Below, in pieces: positions 15,540 to 27,584 of a stretch of 64,000 nucleotides of DNA; position 1 is the first letter of the stretch; each line of letters begins with the position of its first letter. Source of the stretch: Martinezella lusitana (GTDB lineage: Bacteria; Pseudomonadota; Alphaproteobacteria; Rhizobiales; Rhizobiaceae); contig NZ_JACHBG010000025.1 in assembly GCF_014207095.1 (NCBI RefSeq), positions 1-64,000 of the forward strand, written 5' to 3'. Made by a program: the position numbers and the translations under genes. The notes under the pieces are model-generated. The model searched no databases. It worked only from the letters and a program-made list of their open reading frames with translations, and was not told the origin of the DNA.

Positions 15540-16001
15540 CCGGAGAGTCTCCTATCTCACGACCACTACCCTGTGTCGGCGGGCAATGCTCGGACATGGG
15601 GCTAGAGGCCAATGCCCGCACGGCCAGCTCTTGTATTACCGGACAGGCGTGAGACACACGTCGATACCCTTGCGCGCATACTTGAGGACGGCGAACGGCG
15701 CGAATAGTCAGCAAGAACATAATAGTGATGCGTTCGCGGTGGCAAAAGCAAGCGATTGATCCGCCGCGGTCTGCAGCAAGTGCCCTATGCTCCTGATCAT
15801 ATCTCCATTCGCCTTCCGACCAATCGGAACAATGCAGACGGGCGGACGTTAGCCCTATGAGGTCGCGGATCGTGCCAAGTGGACATGATGGTGCTGAAGA
15901 ATATGGAGATTTTTCCGCTTTCTCTCCATAGCCAACGAAACGGCAGCCGAGCTTCCTATCCATCCGATCTGTGGCCCTTTCAATATTCAAGGAGATGTAA
16001 A
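15540..16001. other. Intergenic region, no gene seen
   Basis: Several short frames exist on both strands but none has a ribosome site, family motif or convincing composition. It presumably contains the promoter of the gene at 16002. Confidence 0.35.
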
Positions 16002-17398: not shown

Positions 17399-17828
17399 CG
17401 CCTTCTCCCATATCTGGACGGCCTATTTGTGTCTCATGGGGGACAACCTCGAGCACGCAGGAATGTTCCGAGCTCGAAGTCCTTAGCAGTTACCGGCTGC
17501 GGTCCGATTCCGAGAAAGTGATTTTGCTCCTGATGGGAGTCCGCCGCTGATCCGGTCCATTTTGACGCAATCATTCATCGATAGACCAAGTGATTAGCAA
17601 ACCCTCGTTGCCCGGAATGCCACTCGGCGGATCCCACATTTTGCCAGCATGATCCGCCGCTCATTTGGCGAGTTCCGTCGGGATGCTGACGTTAAAGATC
17701 AAAAGGACGACATGCGGATCTCAAGCGGTTATCGCGCCGAATTGCGTGGAGGAAATATCGTCGACGCTGGCGATTTCGTGTCCGCTGCAAGCTCGCCATA
17801 GTACCATCTGGAAAGCGTTCAGGCTTCA
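17399..17828. other. Intergenic region, no gene seen
   Basis: Between the BON operon and the first leader cassette; no supported frame. It likely holds the minus-strand promoter of the BON operon and, near its right end, the plus-strand promoter of the glycan operon. Confidence 0.35.
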
Positions 17829-18028
17829 TCAGACTAAAGTCCGGCCACAGATAGGACCTAGGTCCTAAGAGATAATCTTTGGTCCTATTGCCATGGATTG
17901 CCCCAACCTTTGCGCCAGTTGTCTGCGGCGATGGAAGCGGCGGGATATCCGGCCGCTAATGCATGCGGAGAAGGTCGATGAACATGAACGACGTCCTTGA
18001 AAGCGGCATCCAAGCCCTGGCACGTACC
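17829..18028 (+). repeat. Leader cassette copy A (200 bp), inverted partner at 27385-27584
   Basis: These 200 bases align without gaps to the reverse complement of 27385-27584, by my count about 170 identities. Shared parts in order: TCAGACTAA, a GACCTAGGTCC palindrome (in this copy AGGACCTAGGTCCT at 17854-17867), AATCTTTGGTCCTA, GCCATGGAT, TTTGCGCCAGTTGT, and two overlapping short frames. The best-conserved part begins at the palindrome. It stands directly before the UDP-xylose synthase gene, reading toward it. Confidence 0.85.
17931..17981 (+). CDS. Candidate 16-residue leader peptide, copy A
   Basis: ATG 17931 reads [16 protein letters not shown] and stops at TGA 17979-17981. The inverted copy encodes a peptide of identical length differing at two residues, and two further codon differences are synonymous (CCG/CCA, GCC/GCT), which hints at selection on the peptide. 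Its stop overlaps the next short frame's ATG. No strong ribosome site is visible upstream. Translation is inferred, not shown. Confidence 0.35.
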   Translation: MEAAGYPAANACGEGR

Positions 18029-18070
18029 GATACCCGGGGCCGTAACATCACGCCTTTGGCTGCGAGATAA
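17978..18070 (+). CDS. Candidate 30-residue leader peptide, copy A
   Basis: ATG 17978 follows GGAGAAGG by three to four bases and overlaps the preceding short frame as ATGA. It begins [16 protein letters not shown] and ends six bases before the UDP-xylose synthase ATG, a spacing that suits translational coupling. The inverted copy encodes MTMNGVLESGIPAMAR at the matching place. The first 16 codons are conserved and the remainder diverges. Confidence 0.4.
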
Positions 18071-18075
18071 TCGGC

Positions 18076-19050
18076 ATGCAGCAAACAAAGCGAATTCTGG
18101 TCACCGGTGGCGCTGGTTTTCTCGGTTCCTTCCTATGCGAAAGGCTTTTGCGGGAGAAACACGAGGTTATCTGTGTCGACAATTTCTTCACAGGACGTAG
18201 GAGCAACATTTCCCATCTGCTCGACAACAGGTCCTTCGAAATTATTCGCCACGACATCACCTTTCCCCTCTATGTCGAGGTCGATGAGATCTACAATCTG
18301 GCTTGTCCGGCAAGCCCTGTTCACTACCAGTTCGACCCGGTACAGACGACTAAAACCAGCGTCCACGGTGCGATCAACATGCTGGGGCTCGCCAAGCGGG
18401 TTGGCGCCAAGATCCTGCAAGCCTCCACCTCCGAGGTCTATGGGGATCCAGAGATCCACCCGCAGCAGGAGAGCTATTTGGGGAGGGTCAACCCTATAGG
18501 ACCGCGCTCCTGCTATGACGAGGGCAAGCGCTGCGCCGAGACCCTGTTCTTCGATTACTGGCGGCAACACAAACTGCAGATCAAGGTGGCGCGCATCTTC
18601 AACACCTATGGCCCAAGGATGCGTCCAGACGATGGCCGCGTCATCTCCAACTTCATCGTGCAGGCGCTGCAGAACAAGCCGATAACAGTTTATGGCAGCG
18701 GCCAGCAGACCCGCTCCTTCTGCTATGTCGATGACCTCATTGACGGACTGATGCGGCTGATGGGGACACAAGACGAAGTCACCGGCCCGATCAACCTCGG
18801 CAATCCGGCGGAGTTTACCATGCTGGAGCTTGCCAATCTCGTCGTGGAGCTGACAGGAAGCCGGTCGGCGACAAAATATCTGCCCCTGCCCGCCGATGAT
18901 CCGCGACAACGCCAGCCGGACATTGCTGTTGCGGCACGCGAGCTCGACTGGACGCCGAAGGTTCAGCTAAGAGCCGGGCTTGGCAAAACGATCGCCTATT
19001 TCGAGGATCTACTGTCCTCTGACCGCTCGCTCGCGATCGCCGCCGAATGA
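18076..19050 (+). CDS. UDP-glucuronate decarboxylase (UDP-xylose synthase)
   Basis: A 324-residue extended short-chain dehydrogenase. It has the NAD-binding GGAGFLGS near the start, [11 protein letters not shown], a TSEVYGDP strand, and the [12 protein letters not shown] catalytic Tyr-Lys motif that is characteristic of UXS enzymes; [10 protein letters not shown] and DGRVISNFI follow. The reaction is oxidation and decarboxylation of UDP-glucuronate to UDP-xylose with internal NAD recycling. It starts six bases after the leader frame and overlaps galE (ATGA), so the two supply nucleotide sugars for the neighbouring glycan genes. Confidence 0.92.
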
Positions 19051-20021
19051 AGACCGTTTTCGTCACAGGCGGCGCCGGCTATATCGGCTCCCATTGCTGC
19101 AAGGCGTTTGCCAAGGCCGGATGGTCGGTCGTGACCTACGACAATCTGTCACGCGGCTGGCATGACGCTGTAAAATGGGGGCCGCTGGTTGAAGGCGACA
19201 TTGCCGACGCTCGTGCGGTCGCAGCTGCGCTTCGCCAATACAAACCGGATGTGGTCGCCCATTTTGCGGCCTACGCCTATGTCGGCGAATCCGTCGAATT
19301 TCCCGAGCTCTACTATCGCAACAACACATTCGGGACGCTGGTTCTCATCGAGGAAATGCTGAAAGCAGGTGTGAACCGGCTGATCTTTTCAAGCACCTGC
19401 GCATCCTATGGCATTCCCTCCCATACGCCGATCGACGAGACACATCCACAATGGCCGATCAATCCGTATGGATGGTCGAAGTTCATGATCGAGCGGATGG
19501 TGGAGGATTTCTCGCGTGCCCGCGGCCTCAACGCTGTGATGCTTCGATACTTCAACGCGGCGGGCTGCGACCCCGATGGCGAGATCGGTGAGCGCCACGA
19601 GCCCGAAACCCATGTCGTTCCACTCGCCATAGAAGCGGCGATCCGATCGGGACGAAGCTTTACCATCAACGGCACCGACTTCGACACGCGCGACGGCACC
19701 GCCGTGCGCGACTACATCCATGTCAGCGATCTCGCGCAGGCTCATGTCCTTGGTGGGGAGAAGCTGCTGCGGGATGAGGGCGTCCATGTCTACAATCTCG
19801 GGACCGGCAACGGGACGACCGTCAAGGAATTGGTTGATGCCGTCGGCCGCATTTCCGGGCAAGAGCTTGCCGTTGCCTATGGCTCCCGCAGGGCCGGCGA
19901 TCCACCGGCCCTCGTCGCCGCAGCCGGCAAGGCTGAGGCAGAGCTTGGATGGGTACCCCGCCATTCCAGCATCGACAGGATTATCGAGACGGCGCTTGCT
20001 TGGTATCGCAGCCGCATGTGA
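19047..20021 (+). CDS. galE: UDP-glucose 4-epimerase
   Basis: A 324-residue epimerase with GGAGYIGSH at the N-terminus, the [12 protein letters not shown] segment, the SSTCASYG strand, and the NPYGWSK catalytic Tyr-xxx-Lys; [12 protein letters not shown] and [12 protein letters not shown] are typical of GalE/ExoB. It interconverts UDP-glucose and UDP-galactose; acting on the product of the preceding gene it could instead give UDP-arabinose from UDP-xylose (inference). The ATG overlaps the upstream stop. It is convergent with a glycosyltransferase whose stop is only three bases away. Confidence 0.93.
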
Positions 20022-20024
20022 TCC

Positions 20025-21254
20025 TTACCTGCCTGTTACTCTCAGAAATGCATGAAGAGCGGCGCCGACCGCCTCAATCGAGAATTTTTCAGTCACCCGC
20101 CTTCGGGCAGCTGCACCGATCTGTGCTCGAAGGGGCTCATCGGCTCTCAACTCCGCCAAGGCCTGCGCAATGTCTTCCGGTCGTTCTTGCCTCACCATCA
20201 GGCCGCCCGAGGCCTCTCCGTCAGCAAAAATATCCGGCAACCCCTGTGCATCCGAAGCGATGACCGGAAGGCCGCAGGCCATGGCTTCCAGTGGCGCAAC
20301 CGGCATGCCCTCGACACGGGAAGCCGTGACATAGACGTCAGCCGCCGATAGCCAGCGCCGGATCAAAGTCCGGTCCGTCGTATAGCTGGAAAGCCAGTGC
20401 ACATTCGACAGGCCGCTTTCGCGAAGAAGCCCTGCGAACGTCGCGCTGTCCTGGCCTGATCCAATGATCACCAGCTGGGTAGAGGGATCGTCGGAGAAGC
20501 GCGTCCAGGCTCCCAAAAGAACGTCGAGCCCCTTGCGGCGGATATCGATGCGCCCGTGATTGACGACAATGAAGCAATCCTGCGGCAGACCGAGATTTGC
20601 TCGCGCCTCGCCGCGATCTATCGCTTGCCATTCCCGCGTATTCAGCGGATTAGGAATATTCGCAATATCTAACGCAATGAGCGGATAGGCCTTGGCAAGC
20701 CGCTCGCGCTCAGCGGCGGACGCGACGATCAGACCCCGGCATGTGCGAAGCGAAAGCTGTCTGGCGGCGGCCTCGATCCAGGACAGGGTACGATCCCCTC
20801 CCTGAAAGGTAGCATAGAGAGGGAGCTTCAAGCCCCGCGCCAGCCATGCCAGCGCATCGAAACGCGTATATTCATATTCCTGGGCAAGCAGCAGATCGCA
20901 TCTGGAGCGGCAAAGGATCTCACGGAAGGCGGAAAGCGGCGTTTGAGACCAGCGCCTGAGGCTATAGGCGGCAGGAGAATGACCTTGCCTTGGCCGCCTT
21001 GCCGGTGCGATCCAGATTGGCGTGCCTGTGCCAGAATGCTCATAGCATTCGATCTTGTTCACACGCTCGGATGCACAGACGATGATCGGCTTGTGACCCG
21101 CGAAACTCAGCGCCGCCGCATAGCCGAATAGCCAACCTCCCGTCATCCGCCCGACGAAATCCTGAAATTCTAGCCCGATCGGTTCGAGGAATTCCTCGAT
21201 CACATCGCCCCATGGAAATAGGGCGATCACTTTGGACGTCTGGTCAACTGTCAT
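20025..21254 (-). CDS. GT4 family glycosyltransferase
   Basis: A 409-residue GT-B glycosyltransferase. The C-terminal half shows the GT4 donor-site pattern: NHGRIDIRRKGLDVLLGAW and VEGMPVAPLEAMACGLPVIAS with its EX7E-type glutamates. The N-terminal half has no membrane helix, so it should be cytoplasmic or peripherally bound. Its ATG overlaps the methyltransferase stop (21251-21254), placing it last in a six-gene minus-strand operon. It probably adds one sugar to a lipid-linked oligosaccharide; donor and acceptor cannot be told. Confidence 0.88.
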   Translation of the reverse strand: MTVDQTSKVIALFPWGDVIEEFLEPIGLEFQDFVGRMTGGWLFGYAAALSFAGHKPIIVCASERVNKIECYEHSGTGTPIWIAPARRPRQGHSPAAYSLRRWSQTPLSAFREILCRSRCDLLLAQEYEYTRFDALAWLARGLKLPLYATFQGGDRTLSWIEAAARQLSLRTCRGLIVASAAERERLAKAYPLIALDIANIPNPLNTREWQAIDRGEARANLGLPQDCFIVVNHGRIDIRRKGLDVLLGAWTRFSDDPSTQLVIIGSGQDSATFAGLLRESGLSNVHWLSSYTTDRTLIRRWLSAADVYVTASRVEGMPVAPLEAMACGLPVIASDAQGLPDIFADGEASGGLMVRQERPEDIAQALAELRADEPLRAQIGAAARRRVTEKFSIEAVGAALHAFLRVTGR

Positions 21255-21991
21255 TTGCGCCAGGCAAAGGCTGTCTCTGTGCCGCGCGTGGAGGGCCGAT
21301 GCATCAAATAGCCAAGGATGGTCACGGGCGCCGCCAGTGCATAAAGTAGCTTGCGACGACGGCGTCCGATGCGGGAAAAAGAGACGTCGTGGAAGAAAGC
21401 CGTGGCAGCGTTGATGAAGGTGGCGCGCCGTTCCGGCCGCCTATCAAACAACGACGCAAGTTCCGGATCCCGGTATCCCCGCCTGACATGACCCCATTCG
21501 CGCATCAGTTCGCTTTCATGGGGGCAATGGCGTTTCATGACGCTGAAATAAGGGTAATGCCAATTGACCTCCGGGGTGGAGATCAGGACATATCCGCCCG
21601 GCCGAACCACCCGCAGCGCCTCCTGCGCAGCGCGGCGATCGTCTTCAATGTGCTCCAGAACGTCGAACATGGTGACGATATCGAAACTGTCGTCATCCAT
21701 TGGCAGCGAGCAGGCATCACCGCAGATGAAAGTCGATTTGGCCCAGGAGGGCTGACGGTCGGCCAGTTCGGGATCGATATCGAGCGTGACGATATCGGCC
21801 TGCGGATAAAGGATGCTGGCAAGGCCACTGCGACCGCCGCCGATTTCCAGCACCCGACCGGTGCCCCCGGTTTCGAGAGGAGCGACCCGATGGATGGCGC
21901 GCATCTTTTCGCGATAGAACAGACCATCCGTTAAGCCGTTCGGATAGGGGTTTCCGGACAGAAACTGGCCAAGCGCTGCTTTCCTAATCAT
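21251..21991 (-). CDS. Class I SAM-dependent methyltransferase
   Basis: A 246-residue protein with the SAM-binding motif I VLEIGGGRSG, an acidic TLDIDPE strand end, and the FDIVTMFDVLEHIEDD and LRVVRPGGYVLISTPE motifs of the class I fold. Lying inside a glycosyltransferase operon with four-base overlaps on both sides, it most likely methylates a sugar of the growing glycan, for instance giving an O-methyl cap. A C-terminal stretch of about 70 residues after the Rossmann core may bind the acceptor. The exact target is unknown. Confidence 0.88.
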   Translation of the reverse strand: MIRKAALGQFLSGNPYPNGLTDGLFYREKMRAIHRVAPLETGGTGRVLEIGGGRSGLASILYPQADIVTLDIDPELADRQPSWAKSTFICGDACSLPMDDDSFDIVTMFDVLEHIEDDRRAAQEALRVVRPGGYVLISTPEVNWHYPYFSVMKRHCPHESELMREWGHVRRGYRDPELASLFDRRPERRATFINAATAFFHDVSFSRIGRRRRKLLYALAAPVTILGYLMHRPSTRGTETAFAWRK

Positions 21992-23304
21992 CGCATTATT
22001 CCTTTCTCAGCGGTTACCGCAATCCCCATCGGGGGTCGCCGCCTTCTCCAGCCGAAGCGCAAGAGAAACTGCAGGCCGGCAAGCCAGCCCTGTATTTCAG
22101 CTGCCAAAATTCCAAGGCGGCCCGGCGGCCCTTCGAAGAGCGCCTTGACGAAGGCCTTCGCAAAATAGACCGGTAGCTGCTTTCCGATGCGCACGATGTT
22201 TCCGCGATCACCGAATTTGTCATATTGCGTCACAAGGGCTGCAACGTGGCCCTTCATATAGGCCTTGATCTGTCGCCTAAGCCCGGACCAGTCGCGGCGA
22301 TGGTGATGAAAAACAACCGCTCGAGGCTCGTAGAGGCATGCGCCGCCTACCGCCAGCAATCGGTACCAAAGCTCCGAGTCCTCCGAACATCCGGCCGCTC
22401 CCGCGCCGAGTCGTTCATCGAACAGGCCAATCCTCTCGAATACCGAGCGGCGAAAAGCCATGTTGGCACCGGCGCCGATCTTCCAGACATGCGCGCCGCT
22501 CGGCCGCGTTTCCTCAAAGAAGCGCCCGTCGAAGGTGAGCGGCACGAAGGTCGAGCCGAAGCCGCCGATCGTGAATTGAAAGGAGCATTGCGCCGCCGTA
22601 TCGAGGCGCGCCGGCAACACAAGACCCGTAAAGGCCTCGACATCGCGTTCGACAAAGGCACGTGCGATTTCTGAGGTCCAGCCCGGATGAGCTTCGACAT
22701 CGTCATCGGTGAACGCGATAATATCAAAGCGGCTTGTTTGAACGCCGGTGTTTCGTGCACGACTTAAACCGGCATGCGGCTCGTGGACATAGCGAAATTC
22801 CGGGAACTGCCGACAGATTTCCCGGGCGTTTCCCGCTGGAGAATTGTCGACGACGACGACTTCACCGGGAGTGCAGCTCTGTGTCGCAAGGCTGCCCAGG
22901 CATTTGCTCAGAGCCGGACCTCGATCGCGGGTGCAGACGACGACGGAAATGTTCTGCGCCGACGTGGAGGATGGAGCCGCGATCGCGTCGAGCACTTCGA
23001 CCAGGTTTTGCGCCTCGAGCGCCGTCTCCAGCAAGAGCGCCGGCTTTGGCTGCCCTTCATAGGTGGCGCGCAACGGTGCGCCGAGCCCGATGCTGCGCGC
23101 CTGCAGTTGCGCAGCAGCATATTCGGCGGCGAGCTGACGCAGTTGCGAGGTCCCGTAGGGTAGCTCGTCCCCCAGCGAGGCCCGTGCTCCGAGCGGCAGA
23201 TCCCTCCACCAGAAGATCGTCAATGCGGGCCCGCGGTCGGCCTCACTGTCGTTGTCGGCATCGGCCAGATCGATATGTCGGACTTCAAATCGTTCTCTCC
23301 TCAT
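21988..23304 (-). CDS. GT2 glycosyltransferase with extra N-terminal domain
   Basis: A 438-residue protein. Residues from about 115 form a GT-A GT2 domain: ISVVVCTRDRGPALSKCLGSL, VVVDNSPAG, ARNTGVQTS, and AFTDDDVEAHPGW with the DDD metal site; a later EDSELWYRLL gives the catalytic acid region. The first 110 residues form a separate domain not part of GT2, also present in divergent form in the next gene. The C-terminal tail contains an amphipathic or membrane-associated segment. Start and stop overlap both neighbours, so the gene is fully embedded in the operon. Confidence 0.88.
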   Translation of the reverse strand: MRRERFEVRHIDLADADNDSEADRGPALTIFWWRDLPLGARASLGDELPYGTSQLRQLAAEYAAAQLQARSIGLGAPLRATYEGQPKPALLLETALEAQNLVEVLDAIAAPSSTSAQNISVVVCTRDRGPALSKCLGSLATQSCTPGEVVVVDNSPAGNAREICRQFPEFRYVHEPHAGLSRARNTGVQTSRFDIIAFTDDDVEAHPGWTSEIARAFVERDVEAFTGLVLPARLDTAAQCSFQFTIGGFGSTFVPLTFDGRFFEETRPSGAHVWKIGAGANMAFRRSVFERIGLFDERLGAGAAGCSEDSELWYRLLAVGGACLYEPRAVVFHHHRRDWSGLRRQIKAYMKGHVAALVTQYDKFGDRGNIVRIGKQLPVYFAKAFVKALFEGPPGRLGILAAEIQGWLAGLQFLLRFGWRRRRPPMGIAVTAEKGIMR

Positions 23305-24524
23305 GGATTGCGCTCCCGGATCGACCTGATACGGGCGCGCGAGCGGTCATATTCGCCTGCAAGACCATAGATCCCACCCCACAGTTCCGCTATGCTGAAG
23401 CGCAGCTCGTGACCGCGCAGCCGCGTCACAGCACGGGCGAGCGCCTTCAACTGGTCAAAGAACCACCAGCGGACCATGGCGCGATGACGGGCTCGCATCT
23501 CGTCGTCGGTGCGATAGCTCTTCACGAGAAAGGCCATCATGCCGAGGCCCCAAGTCCAGTATTGACGCCTCAGTTGCGGAATGGTTTCGCGATGCTCGTG
23601 ATAAACGGCATATTCCGGCTCATAGATCATCGGACGTCCGGAGCGCAGGACACGGTAGAATATATCAAGATCGCCGCCTCCCGGCAGCGGCGCTCCCGTA
23701 TCGAGCGCCTCGTCGAAACCGCCGAGCTCCAGCAGCAAAGACCGGTCGAAGGCCATGTTGCAGCCGGCGCCGAGAATGCCGGCACCGACGGGATGAAGCG
23801 GATTGTCGAAGCGCGCCTTGTGGAACTCCCTGCGTGCAAAACCGCGGCCAAATCCTCCACGCCTCTCGAAGAAGATCTGCGCCTCGGTGTCCAGACGAAA
23901 CGGCAGCACGAGGCCGGTGAAACCACCAACGCCGGGGTTATCGCGGCAAGCCTTGGCAAGACCGGCAAGCCAGTTGCAGTCGACCACGACGTCGTCGTCG
24001 AGATAAGCAATGATATCGCCCCAGGCCGCATGAAGGGCGGCGTTGCGAGCAAAATCCAACCCGGCCTTCGGTTCGAAAACGTAGCGGATATCCTGAAAAC
24101 TCTCTACGGCTTCGCGCGTGGTCGAATCCACCGAGGCATTGTCAACCACGATGATTTCGACGAACCGGAAGGCAGCTTCTGTCCTTGCCCGGTCGAGCGA
24201 GCGCAGCAGTCGGGAAAGGCGCTGTGCCCGATCCTTGGTACAGATGGCGATGCTGAGGCTTGGCAGCGGCGCGTCCTTGACTGGCGACCGCGCCGTCAGC
24301 TCCTCCTCCATCTTGGCAACGAGGATGCGCTGGGCGAAGCGCTCATCGGCAAGAACTCTCAAATTTTCGACCGTCAGTGTCGATCCGGCCGGCTGCTCGA
24401 TCATTTCGAATGCGATCAACCGGCCTTGCCACCGCGCGATCAGACCAACACCGGTCTGTCCGGCCGCAAGTTCGATCGGCTCCAGAGGCTTCGACAATTC
24501 GATATCAATTAGCTTGTAACTCAT
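23301..24524 (-). CDS. GT2 glycosyltransferase with extra N-terminal domain
   Basis: A 407-residue paralogue of its downstream neighbour. After about 95 residues of N-terminal domain comes the GT2 core: LSIAICTKDRAQRLSRLLRSL, VVDNASVDS, ARNAALHAAWGD, IAYLDDDVVVD, and a GGDLDIFYRVLRSG segment. ATG 24524 fits the MSYKLIDIEL start with GGGAG upstream; it overlaps the end of the ABC exporter gene by 20 bases. A cytosolic or membrane-peripheral sugar transferase is expected. The two paralogues may add successive sugars of the same repeat unit. Confidence 0.88.
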   Translation of the reverse strand: MSYKLIDIELSKPLEPIELAAGQTGVGLIARWQGRLIAFEMIEQPAGSTLTVENLRVLADERFAQRILVAKMEEELTARSPVKDAPLPSLSIAICTKDRAQRLSRLLRSLDRARTEAAFRFVEIIVVDNASVDSTTREAVESFQDIRYVFEPKAGLDFARNAALHAAWGDIIAYLDDDVVVDCNWLAGLAKACRDNPGVGGFTGLVLPFRLDTEAQIFFERRGGFGRGFARREFHKARFDNPLHPVGAGILGAGCNMAFDRSLLLELGGFDEALDTGAPLPGGGDLDIFYRVLRSGRPMIYEPEYAVYHEHRETIPQLRRQYWTWGLGMMAFLVKSYRTDDEMRARHRAMVRWWFFDQLKALARAVTRLRGHELRFSIAELWGGIYGLAGEYDRSRARIRSIRERNP

Positions 24525-26328
24525 GACCCAACTCCCGGCCGTCACGACGACCGTGCTGAAATTCGAGGAGCCTCGAAAAATGTCCCTGCCGTTTGAAGAG
24601 CTCGTCCGGCGAACCGGCCTCGACCACGCGCCCCTTCGTCATCACGATGATCTGATCGGCGGCCAGAACGGTCGATAGTCGGTGAGCAATCACGACGACG
24701 GTGCGGTTATGTGAATACTCGTCGAGTGCCAGCTGAAACGCCTGTTCAGTTTCGGCATCGAGCGCGTTCGTCGCCTCGTCCAGGAGCAGAATATCGGGGT
24801 TTCGAAGGATCGTTCGGGCGAGCGCCACGCGCTGTCTTTGTCCGCCCGACAGGCGCATTCCCTGATCGCCGATCCGCGTCTCGTAGCCATCCGGAAGCAA
24901 CCGGATGAAATCGTCAGCCTTAGCGATTTCGGCCGCCTTGCGGATTTCGGCCGGCCCGGCATCCAGATCGCCGTAGGAGATGTTGGCCGATATCGCGTCA
25001 TTGAAGAGATGAACCTCCTGCGACATCAGCGACAGGCGCTTGCGCCAGCTAGCCAGATCGAACTCGGTAAGCGGTATTCCGTCTGCCACGACCTCCCCGG
25101 ATGTCGGATCCAAGAAGCGAAAGAGCAATGCCATCAGTGTGGATTTACCGGCCCCCGACTCGCCGACGATCGCCGTGGTTTTGCCGGCGGGAATGCTGAA
25201 GGAGACATCCTCCAGTGCGAGCGGCTGGCCGGGTGCATAGCGGAAGGAGACATTGCGCAATTCGACGGTCTGTCTGAAGGCTGGGGCCTGCACATGCCCT
25301 TGCGAAAGAAAGGGCCTCTCCGTTGCACGAAGGAAATCATCGACATCGTCGATACTGCCGGCGAGCCCGTCGAGTGCGATCTTCGATTGCAGAAGTTCGC
25401 GGGTCGGACCCTGAAGACGGTATAGAAGCGACAGAAAGGCTGCCAGCGCTGCGATGCCGAGGCCCACCGATTGAGCGACCAAAACGAGCGCGCCGATCAG
25501 GATCGTAATCGAAATTTCCGAGACAGGCCCCGGTGTCGCCCAAAGCATGTCGAGCTTTAGAAGGCGCCGGCGTACATTGTCTGAGGTCTTGCGGAAGCGG
25601 TTGCGCTCATAGTCTTCCTGGGCAAAGGCACGGATCAATTGCAGCGCGTTGATGCTCTCCCACATTCTCAAACCGAACTGCTTGTTTTCCTCGACGACAG
25701 CCTTGCCGGTCTGGTCTGCGCGACGCGTCGCCAGGCGAATGGCCATGGCCCCGAAGAACAGGAACGTCATCGAGAAGAACGTCAGCCTGACGGAAATCAG
25801 CAGCATCAGCAGCATGAAGACGACGAAGGTGCAGAAGCAGATCATCAAACGATAGGCTAGGCTTAGGGCCTGACTGACCTTCCAGGTGTTGTTGGCGATC
25901 GTCGTGATGATATCGGAGCGCTTGTTGTCCACCCGGTAGTCGATGCATGAGCTGATCGTCTGGTCGAAGACCTTTGCTCTTAGCCGATGTGCGACGAGAC
26001 CATCGATATACCGTGTCACCCAGGTATTGATGAGGTGGACGGCATTCTTGAGGAGGATGCTCGCGCACAGAACCCCCACGAGGAATGCCGTCAAATGGCT
26101 CTGCGGAACAGGTGCGAGAAGGCGGTCGAAGATCCGCTGCCATGCTCCCCCTTGCGCCGCCGCAGCACCGAGGCTTTGAATGAGGGGAATGAAGAGAAAA
26201 AGCCCCGCCCCCTCCAGGACCGCAGCGGCAAGGCCGAGCCCGACGATGGTTAGCCCTGCCCAGGCGGGCGCCTCCGCCAGGCGGAAGAGCCGTTGCAGCT
26301 GCGCGAGGAGGGAATTGCCCGAGCTCAC
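24505..26328 (-). CDS. ABC exporter, half-transporter with fused ATPase
   Basis: A 607-residue transporter: six membrane helices (about residues 20-310) followed by an ATPase with GESGAGKST Walker A, LSGGQRQRVALAR, and ILLLDEAT Walker B. This is the MsbA/PglK-like layout used to flip lipid-linked oligosaccharides. GTG 26328 is chosen as start because it overlaps the upstream stop (GTGA) and GGAGACG precedes it; the open frame itself continues to 26424 within the upstream gene. In this operon it most likely moves the glycan unit across the inner membrane. Confidence 0.9.
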   Translation of the reverse strand: MSSGNSLLAQLQRLFRLAEAPAWAGLTIVGLGLAAAVLEGAGLFLFIPLIQSLGAAAAQGGAWQRIFDRLLAPVPQSHLTAFLVGVLCASILLKNAVHLINTWVTRYIDGLVAHRLRAKVFDQTISSCIDYRVDNKRSDIITTIANNTWKVSQALSLAYRLMICFCTFVVFMLLMLLISVRLTFFSMTFLFFGAMAIRLATRRADQTGKAVVEENKQFGLRMWESINALQLIRAFAQEDYERNRFRKTSDNVRRRLLKLDMLWATPGPVSEISITILIGALVLVAQSVGLGIAALAAFLSLLYRLQGPTRELLQSKIALDGLAGSIDDVDDFLRATERPFLSQGHVQAPAFRQTVELRNVSFRYAPGQPLALEDVSFSIPAGKTTAIVGESGAGKSTLMALLFRFLDPTSGEVVADGIPLTEFDLASWRKRLSLMSQEVHLFNDAISANISYGDLDAGPAEIRKAAEIAKADDFIRLLPDGYETRIGDQGMRLSGGQRQRVALARTILRNPDILLLDEATNALDAETEQAFQLALDEYSHNRTVVVIAHRLSTVLAADQIIVMTKGRVVEAGSPDELFKRQGHFSRLLEFQHGRRDGRELGHELQAN

Positions 26329-27326
26329 TGGATCGTCTCCGAGTAGAGAGGCCGCAACTCGGCGTTCCGTTGCAGCCCCCTCAAGCGGGCCTTGAGCCAA
26401 TCGGGAACCAGCCGGGCGCGGCAATAGACATCCAGCATATTCGGCAGGCTTGAAATCGCCAGGCGTGGCTCCAATGCCAGAAATCGCCTCAACAGATCAC
26501 AGCCGTCGAAGAATCGCCCGCTGACAAAAGCTCTAACGACCAGCCAGTGGATCATGTCGACCAAATGCGCGTCGAGGTCGCTGCCATATTGCGGATATTT
26601 TCCACGATACTCGGCAAGGACGATTTCGCACGAAGCGAGCATCCGCTTCACATCGCTCGACATATTTGTATTCGTCATGCGATAGCCGATCAGGTGCTGC
26701 TGTATGACGCGGAATTCGTAGCTCTCCGCAATTCTGAGGCAGATCAGAAGATCCTCACAGCCCTGGGCATTGCGTGCCCTTAGGGACGCGTCGAACTGCC
26801 CGGCTTCTTCGAATGCGGAACGGCGCATAAGCATCGAGCTGCCATTGCCGACAAAATTGTTTCTGCACATGCGCTGAAGCACATACCCTTCATGGCTCGG
26901 CCGGTTATGCAGGGAAAATACGCGGCTATGTTCGTCGATCAATGCATACCAGCAATAGGCCAAGCCAACCGATGGCCCGCCCTCTTCAAGAGCACGCCAT
27001 TGAAGGGCGATCTTTGACGGAGCCCATAGATCGTCGGCATCGATAAATGCGAGAAACTCGGCGGTGGTTGCGGCAGCACCATGGTTCCGCGCTACGGCCA
27101 CGCCGCTATTGGCCTGCTGCAGGATCCGGATTCGCGGATCCTGTTTTGCATATTCGGCCACGATTGACGGGGATCGATCCGATGAACCGTCATCAACAAC
27201 GATGATATCGAGAGCCTGATGCGTCTGGCAGCTGATGCTGGCCAGGGTCGCGCCAATCGTTCGTTCGGCGTTGAACATCGGCACGACGACCGCAACCGTG
27301 GTACTTCGCTTATCGTCCACAATCAT
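26325..27326 (-). CDS. GT2 family glycosyltransferase
   Basis: A 333-residue GT-A enzyme starting MIVDDKRSTTVAVVVPMFN. Standard GT2 motifs follow: IIVVDDGSSDRS, VAVARNHGAAA and FLAFIDADDLWAP with the DAD metal site. The C-terminal third is helical without clear membrane segments. ATG 27326 was chosen as the natural N-terminus; the upstream leader frame overlaps it by 17 bases in another register, so coupling is likely. It is the first enzyme gene of the minus-strand operon, directly after leader cassette copy B. Confidence 0.88.
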   Translation of the reverse strand: MIVDDKRSTTVAVVVPMFNAERTIGATLASISCQTHQALDIIVVDDGSSDRSPSIVAEYAKQDPRIRILQQANSGVAVARNHGAAATTAEFLAFIDADDLWAPSKIALQWRALEEGGPSVGLAYCWYALIDEHSRVFSLHNRPSHEGYVLQRMCRNNFVGNGSSMLMRRSAFEEAGQFDASLRARNAQGCEDLLICLRIAESYEFRVIQQHLIGYRMTNTNMSSDVKRMLASCEIVLAEYRGKYPQYGSDLDAHLVDMIHWLVVRAFVSGRFFDGCDLLRRFLALEPRLAISSLPNMLDVYCRARLVPDWLKARLRGLQRNAELRPLYSETIQ

Positions 27327-27435
27327 TGCCACCGTTGGCGGCCAAGCCAACAAACCCGATAATGCCCTTGCTGCCGGAAGCATTGGCACGTGCCATGGCC
27401 GGGATGCCGCTCTCAAGGACGCCGTTCATCGTCAT
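27310..27435 (-). CDS. Candidate 41-residue leader peptide, copy B
   Basis: Starts ATG 27435, reading MTMNGVLESGIPAMAR, the counterpart of the second frame in copy A. It is longer than the copy A peptide and overlaps the glycosyltransferase start by 17 bases. GGAGAAG lies upstream of the ATG and the ATGA overlap with the shorter frame is kept. Evidence for translation is the conservation between the copies only. Confidence 0.4.
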   Translation of the reverse strand: MTMNGVLESGIPAMARANASGSKGIIGFVGLAANGGNDCGR

Positions 27436-27584
27436 CGATCTTCTCCGCATGCACGAGCAGCTGGATATCCCGCCGCTTCCATCGCCGGAAACAACTGGCG
27501 CAAAGGTCGGGACGATCCATGGCATTAGGACCAAAGATTGTCTCTTCGGACCTAGGTCTGGTCCGGAACGGGACCTTAGTCTGA
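27385..27584 (-). repeat. Leader cassette copy B (200 bp), inverted partner of 17829-18028
   Basis: The reverse complement of this interval aligns to copy A over exactly 200 bases without gaps. It keeps the GACCTAGGTCC core (10-base palindrome), the AATCTTTGGTCCTA box, the GCGCCAGTTGT stretch and both short frames. It stands directly before the minus-strand glycosyltransferase operon. The two copies thus point inward at either end of the polysaccharide locus. Confidence 0.85.
27432..27482 (-). CDS. Candidate 16-residue leader peptide, copy B
   Basis: ATG 27482 reads MEAAGYPAARACGEDR with a stop at 27434-27432. Same length and overlap geometry as copy A; two residue changes and two synonymous codon changes separate them. 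Confidence 0.35.
   Translation of the reverse strand: MEAAGYPAARACGEDR

Follow-up and report, generated by a model that had tools for sequence, protein, structure and literature searches.

Twin inverted leaders with a candidate translationally coupled upstream frame at the ends of a glycan cluster in Martinezella lusitana

The glycan cluster and its leaders

The analyzed window comprises 64,000 nucleotides (positions 1 to 64,000, forward strand) of contig NZ_JACHBG010000025.1 from Martinezella lusitana (Rhizobiaceae; assembly GCF_014207095.1). It contains a glycan cluster of about 9.5 kb, which is composed of two convergent operons and bounded by two inverted leaders, referred to as copy A and copy B. 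The plus-strand operon behind copy A begins with a uxs-like gene of the UDP-glucuronate decarboxylase family (18076–19050), assigned by a phmmer match of 415.7 bits to 4gll_A, a solved structure of UDP-glucuronic acid decarboxylase 1, as well as by a Pfam epimerase match. It is followed on the same strand by a gene for a sugar-nucleotide 4-epimerase of the GalE family (19047–20021; NCBIfam TIGR01179 galE, 397.7 bits with a cut-off of 262.3). The operon behind copy B is encoded on the minus strand and starts with a family 2 glycosyltransferase (26325–27326; Pfam PF00535), whose start was placed by homology. An ABC transporter, two further GT2 enzymes, a methyltransferase and a GT4 enzyme follow in this order (20025–26424, minus strand; Pfam). 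A match to the Rhizobiales sRNA Atu_At1 (RF02496, 103.5 bits) is located outside the glycan cluster at 15863–15970 on the plus strand.

The two leaders share 84.7% identity over 203 bp (E = 3e-61), and a degenerate DNA pattern for MEAAGYP occurs exactly twice in the window, compared with 0.01 occurrences expected by chance. Each leader contains a promoter-like block, located at 17829–17899 on the plus strand in copy A, where 28 columns are invariant across 36 copies, and at 27514–27584 on the minus strand in copy B, where it is recognized by its similarity to copy A, the invariant columns and a genome scan. In copy A, GACTAAAGTC (17832–17841), the palindrome GGACCTAGGTCC (17854–17865) and TCTTTGGTCC (17876–17885), all on the plus strand, are putative motifs that probably serve as regulator sites. 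Downstream of the block, two short frames overlap as ATGA in each window copy, as described in the initial annotation: ORF1 with 16 codons (17931–17981, plus strand, in copy A; 27432–27482, minus strand, in copy B) and ORF2, the proposed translationally coupled upstream ORF, with 30 codons in copy A (17978–18070, plus strand) and 41 codons in copy B (27310–27435, minus strand). That annotation had the coordinates right, along with the overlaps and the two missense and two synonymous codon differences between the 16-codon peptides. In copy A, 5 nt separate the end of ORF2 from the uxs ATG at 18076, and in copy B, ORF2 overlaps the glycosyltransferase start at 27326. ORF2 is preceded by a Shine-Dalgarno (SD) sequence, GGAGAAGG at 17967–17974 (plus strand) in copy A and GGAGAAGA at 27439–27446 (minus strand) in copy B, each with a duplex energy of -6.6 kcal/mol.

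Distribution and within-genome likeness of the leaders

A search of 148 genomes of the genus, in which few candidates were scored per genome so that diverged leader copies may have been missed, returned leader matches in 21 genomes, the own genome counted. Two leaders each are present in 18 of these (the own genome and 17 others), which yields the 36 copies compared below, and the other three contain a 35-bp match only. The three loci with this short match, L053–L055, were left out of every 36-copy count; their likeness to ORF1 is limited to a 35-bp, 91% match to the DNA encoding MEAAGYPAA and was taken as chance, and in L053, for which this was checked, the match lies inside a long CobN-type gene. 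Also outside these counts are six further copies from three plasmids, four of which are near-duplicates of L039, while two (L100) are 94–97% identical to L046. All six keep ORF2 open, with its start at the second Met in L098_A and L099_A, and ORF1 is broken in both copies of L100. Among 61 relatives searched, seven match, and no leader match was obtained in the 24 genera other than the own one. A literature search of partial coverage found nothing on the leader or its motif.

In all 18 leader-bearing genomes, uxs and the first glycosyltransferase adjoin the leaders (in L039, the uxs alignment begins only at residue 3), and the arrangement of the uxs, uxe, GT4, methyltransferase, two GT2 and ABC genes is unchanged in the 17 relatives. 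With one genome per species, the exact promoter pattern was found in 22 stretches, i.e. two in each of 11 genomes, from species that include R. hainanense, R. freirei, R. miluonense, R. multihospitium, R. calliandrae, R. mayense and R. rhizogenes 17-2069-2c. A search of 394 family genomes detected a relative of one cluster gene in 9 of them, from four genera. In other genera, the cluster is found at L065 and L066, and L067 harbors uxs-uxe in a different setting; at all three loci, the leader motif is absent from the 400 nt before uxs when up to one mismatch is allowed. L066, which lacks the leader, carries GACTTAAGTC at about -392 of the glycosyltransferase, resembling the palindromic sites of the window, and one weak upstream site similar to TTTGGTCC or TTTAGTCC is seen in L066 and in L067. 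By their flanking DNA, the loci compared (L036–L052, L098, L100 and the window) form several groups unrelated to one another despite the conserved cluster, which indicates that the leader-bounded unit sits at several genomic places.

In a scan of the own genome for the promoter-like block, only the two leader copies score strongly (E about 7e-20). A wider regulon was considered and rejected, as the next site reaches only E = 0.125. This weak third match is located on contig C27 (L072, about 1480–1545) and displays AGTCC/GGTCC half-sites upstream of a gene for a small predicted secreted protein.

Copies A and B resemble each other more within a genome than between genomes. Their difference amounts to 0.145 within versus 0.231 between genomes for the promoter and 5′ region and to 0.151 versus 0.235 for the first 48 nt of ORF2 (none of 5000 permutations gave so low a value in either case), with a slight effect in the later part of ORF2 (0.432 versus 0.456; 37 of 5000). 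The B copy of the same genome is the closest or tied-closest one in 8 of 18 cases for the promoter and 5′ region, in 2 of 18 for the first 48 nt of ORF2 and in 3 of 18 for its later part. Gene conversion would be the simplest reading of this likeness, with shared selection as the alternative. Inversion of the cluster through the inverted leaders was also considered; in a comparison that omitted short flanks and some loci, no A-flank matched a B-flank apart from one 73-bp piece shared by L052_B and L098_A, and this scenario was dismissed.

Conservation of the two leader frames

ORF1 is not conserved as a gene: 5 of the 36 copies lack its ATG, and the frame is 24 codons long in 13 copies, 16 codons in three and between 5 and more than 50 codons in the others; in several copies it runs into the ORF2 frame, and the longest versions pass the end of the extracted stretch. 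The SD energy ranges from +1.2 to -1.1 kcal/mol in 35 of 36 copies (-3.2 in L040_A), pN/pS in this frame is 0.78, and the ATGA overlap with ORF2 occurs in five copies. The 16-codon form results from a 5-nt deletion that is common to both window copies and missing from the aligned relatives, and its ATGA version is nearly private to the own genome. Across the 36 copies, frame, start and stop are not conserved as they would be in a coding gene. Hence, the two-ORF device proposed in the initial annotation is unsupported, since ORF1 loses its ATG, contains frameshifts and in-frame stops and lacks an SD. Disruption at neutral rates, which had been named there as the observation that would speak against both frames, is indeed seen for ORF1, whereas the ORF2 frame is uninterrupted in all 36 copies, including all 18 A copies.

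ORF2 has its own ribosome binding site and start, as would a coupled upstream ORF. An ATG is present at the aligned start in 34 of 36 copies, the exceptions being L039_A, which begins at the second Met, and L051_B, which has ATA at this position and GTG at codon 3. SD energies lie between -6.0 and -6.9 kcal/mol in all of the 36 copies except L050_B (-2.9). The calculation behind the SD energies given here for ORF1, ORF2 and the enzyme genes set the start one base off in L039_A and used a later TTG for L037_B and L048_B. The stop of ORF2 likewise overlaps or closely precedes the downstream start throughout (36/36). In copy A, it lies 8 or 9 nt before the uxs ATG, counted from first base to first base (18/18), and in copy B inside the glycosyltransferase start, by 14 nt in 14 copies and by 1 nt in four (18/18; the aligned downstream codon of L037_B is ACG, so that this start position is given by homology). 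In the four latter copies, the C-terminal end runs in another frame up to the glycosyltransferase start, which argues that the position of the stop is kept and the C-terminal peptide is not.

The openness of ORF2 on its own is weak evidence, because neutral simulations that consider internal stops alone leave every copy open in 301 (A) and 98 (B) of 2000 runs, and because the same DNA has one antisense frame that likewise lacks stops in all 18 A copies and in 17 of the 18 B copies. Both observations, together with the greater likeness of the first 48 nt of ORF2 within than between genomes, would fit a scenario in which only the promoter is functional and ORF2 is open by chance in GC-rich DNA and through homogenization between copies. 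However, this scenario is unlikely in view of the position of the stop, the indel pattern, the strong SD in 35 of 36 copies and the later part of ORF2, which diverges most and yet holds its frame in all 18 A copies. When openness and stop position are considered jointly, no failing copy is obtained in 3 of 2000 (A) and 229 of 2000 (B) runs with substitutions only, and in 0 of 2000 runs on each side with indels at the upstream rate, given the uxs tree, a hand-set list of indel sizes and a fixed kappa that these simulations assume, with L039_A and L051_B left out as roots. Upstream of ORF2, 8 of 9 (A) and 15 of 16 (B) distinct gap runs are not multiples of three; within ORF2, this applies to 1 of 3 (A) and 3 of 7 (B). 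The sole non-triplet A gap is located at the start codon of L039_A, and the three B gaps lie in the last third of ORF2, in copies where termination at the start codon is retained. Four of the 18 A copies have a strong uxs SD that overlaps the ORF2 stop, and conservation of the stop could in part reflect its use as an SD. Taken together, the comparisons show, at the level of DNA sequence, that ORF2 is maintained as an open frame, along with its SD and the position of its stop, and that its peptide drifts.

This drift is apparent from pN/pS values of 0.72 (A) and 0.75 (B), compared with 0.058 for codons 1–31 of uxs in the same genomes. Column shuffles give 0.83 (sd 0.14) for A and 0.83 (sd 0.11) for B, and 13 of 60 (A) and 18 of 60 (B) shuffles are at or below the observed value, so that amino-acid constraint in ORF2 is not separable from shuffles, although the roughly 30 codons limit the power and the data are compatible with weak constraint. 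For the first 17 codons, the values are 0.61 and 0.66. Being near the shuffles and far above uxs, these ratios suggest that translation or the frame, and not the peptide, is kept. The comparison of substitutions in more copies that the initial annotation had envisaged finds the frame still open and no detectable constraint on the peptide (0.72–0.75). A functional small protein made together with the glycan enzymes could account for the open frame in all copies, the strong SD in 35 of them and the similarity of the first 15 or so residues between A and B, but it is improbable, as purifying selection on amino acids, the hallmark of such a protein, was not detected for ORF2, which moreover displays no third-position excess, has different C-termini in A and B and gives no NCBIfam match.

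Two candidate hairpins were considered in the leader RNA. One in the ORF1 region (17937–17956 in copy A) is pairable in 90.5% of cells, and another, which would pair the ORF2 SD with ORF2 codons 6–8, in 88.9%; covariation in both is not above shuffles, and RNA hairpins were therefore discarded as a conserved element. That ORF2 encodes a regulatory leader peptide, which senses a signal via attenuation or stalling, is very unlikely: its location in a 5′ leader and the potential pairing of its SD would be in line with such a role, but there is no terminator-like site in 17500–18300, no run of one amino-acid codon was seen in the ORF2 translations, the peptide appears unconstrained, the hairpins lack covariation beyond shuffles and the sole Rfam gathering-level match in the window is located elsewhere, and for these reasons the attenuation suggested in the initial annotation is not supported.

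A coupled upstream frame for two convergent operons

The probable function of ORF2 is that of a translationally coupled upstream ORF, which would be used for its translation and not for its peptide, behind a promoter cassette that is homogenized within genomes. Each leader would thus combine the promoter cassette with the short frame. Ribosomes may load at the strong ORF2 SD, translate about 30 codons in copy A or 36–41 codons in copy B, terminate close to where the first enzyme gene starts and reinitiate there. From the aligned leaders, we infer that ORF2 is translated, that this translation is coupled to the gene behind it and that both convergent operons are co-regulated through the two leaders. 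Of the 18 leader genomes, 14 have a weak uxs SD (-2.9 to -4.1) and four a strong one; at the three loci from other genera, which gave no leader match, its energy is -6.2 to -7.4. Most B copies have a glycosyltransferase SD of moderate strength, and the values for two outgroups (-5.9 and -0.5) give no clear picture of an SD replacement. Predicted folding reveals no consistent occlusion of the uxs start, which would favor reinitiation over unfolding. The original proposal of a coupled leader for surface-glycan genes is hence supported for ORF2, which appears to be coupled, with its open frame, SD, fixed stop and adjoining glycan-synthesis genes, but not for ORF1.

Conceivably, although this may well prove wrong, the leaders represent a portable promoter-plus-start module that would combine regulator sites with a ribosome-loading frame of irrelevant peptide sequence. 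Placed at both cluster ends and matched by gene conversion, it could allow the two arms to be switched on and translated in step, with selection acting on openness and stop position alone.

Coupled frames of this kind have precedents. Coupling of Escherichia coli iraD to a short upstream ORF was established experimentally (PMC5574718). Like ORF2, this leader ORF stops at the downstream start, and two of the three iraD leader ORFs have no effect on iraD, as is proposed here for ORF1. Unlike in the present case, in which no regulator was identified and no clear occlusion is predicted, experiments on iraD revealed that CsrA represses the upstream ORF and that RNA structure hides the iraD SD (PMC5574718). 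According to a review on translational coupling, a short upstream ORF may solely deliver ribosomes to the next gene, and such frames are possibly widespread (PMC12548453); compared with these, the present case is comparative only, and the leader occurs twice per genome in front of two convergent operons. Short ORFs in rhizobial 5′ leaders are also known from Sinorhizobium meliloti, where the 14-aa peTrpL is a functional leader peptide in the trp attenuator (PMC10117765), whereas the peptide of ORF2 drifts and an attenuator was not detected here. In a known Sinorhizobium polysaccharide system (CuxR), uxs-uxe-like genes likewise come first, and the product is a surface polysaccharide as well; unlike there, uxs-uxe is convergent here with a six-gene operon, and both operons are headed by the duplicated leader. 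The leaders are therefore best filed, as judged from their sequences, as a comparatively well-supported candidate for the known coupled upstream ORF type with an unusual twin arrangement.

The 36 copies provide a natural comparative case in which frame and stop are kept while the peptide drifts, and this combination of open frame, fixed stop and drifting peptide is the signature expected of ribosome-delivery upstream ORFs. If this interpretation is right, ORF2 frames should not be labeled as small proteins in genome annotation. The twin homogenized leaders suggest a way in which these bacteria may keep two convergent operons for one polymer in step.
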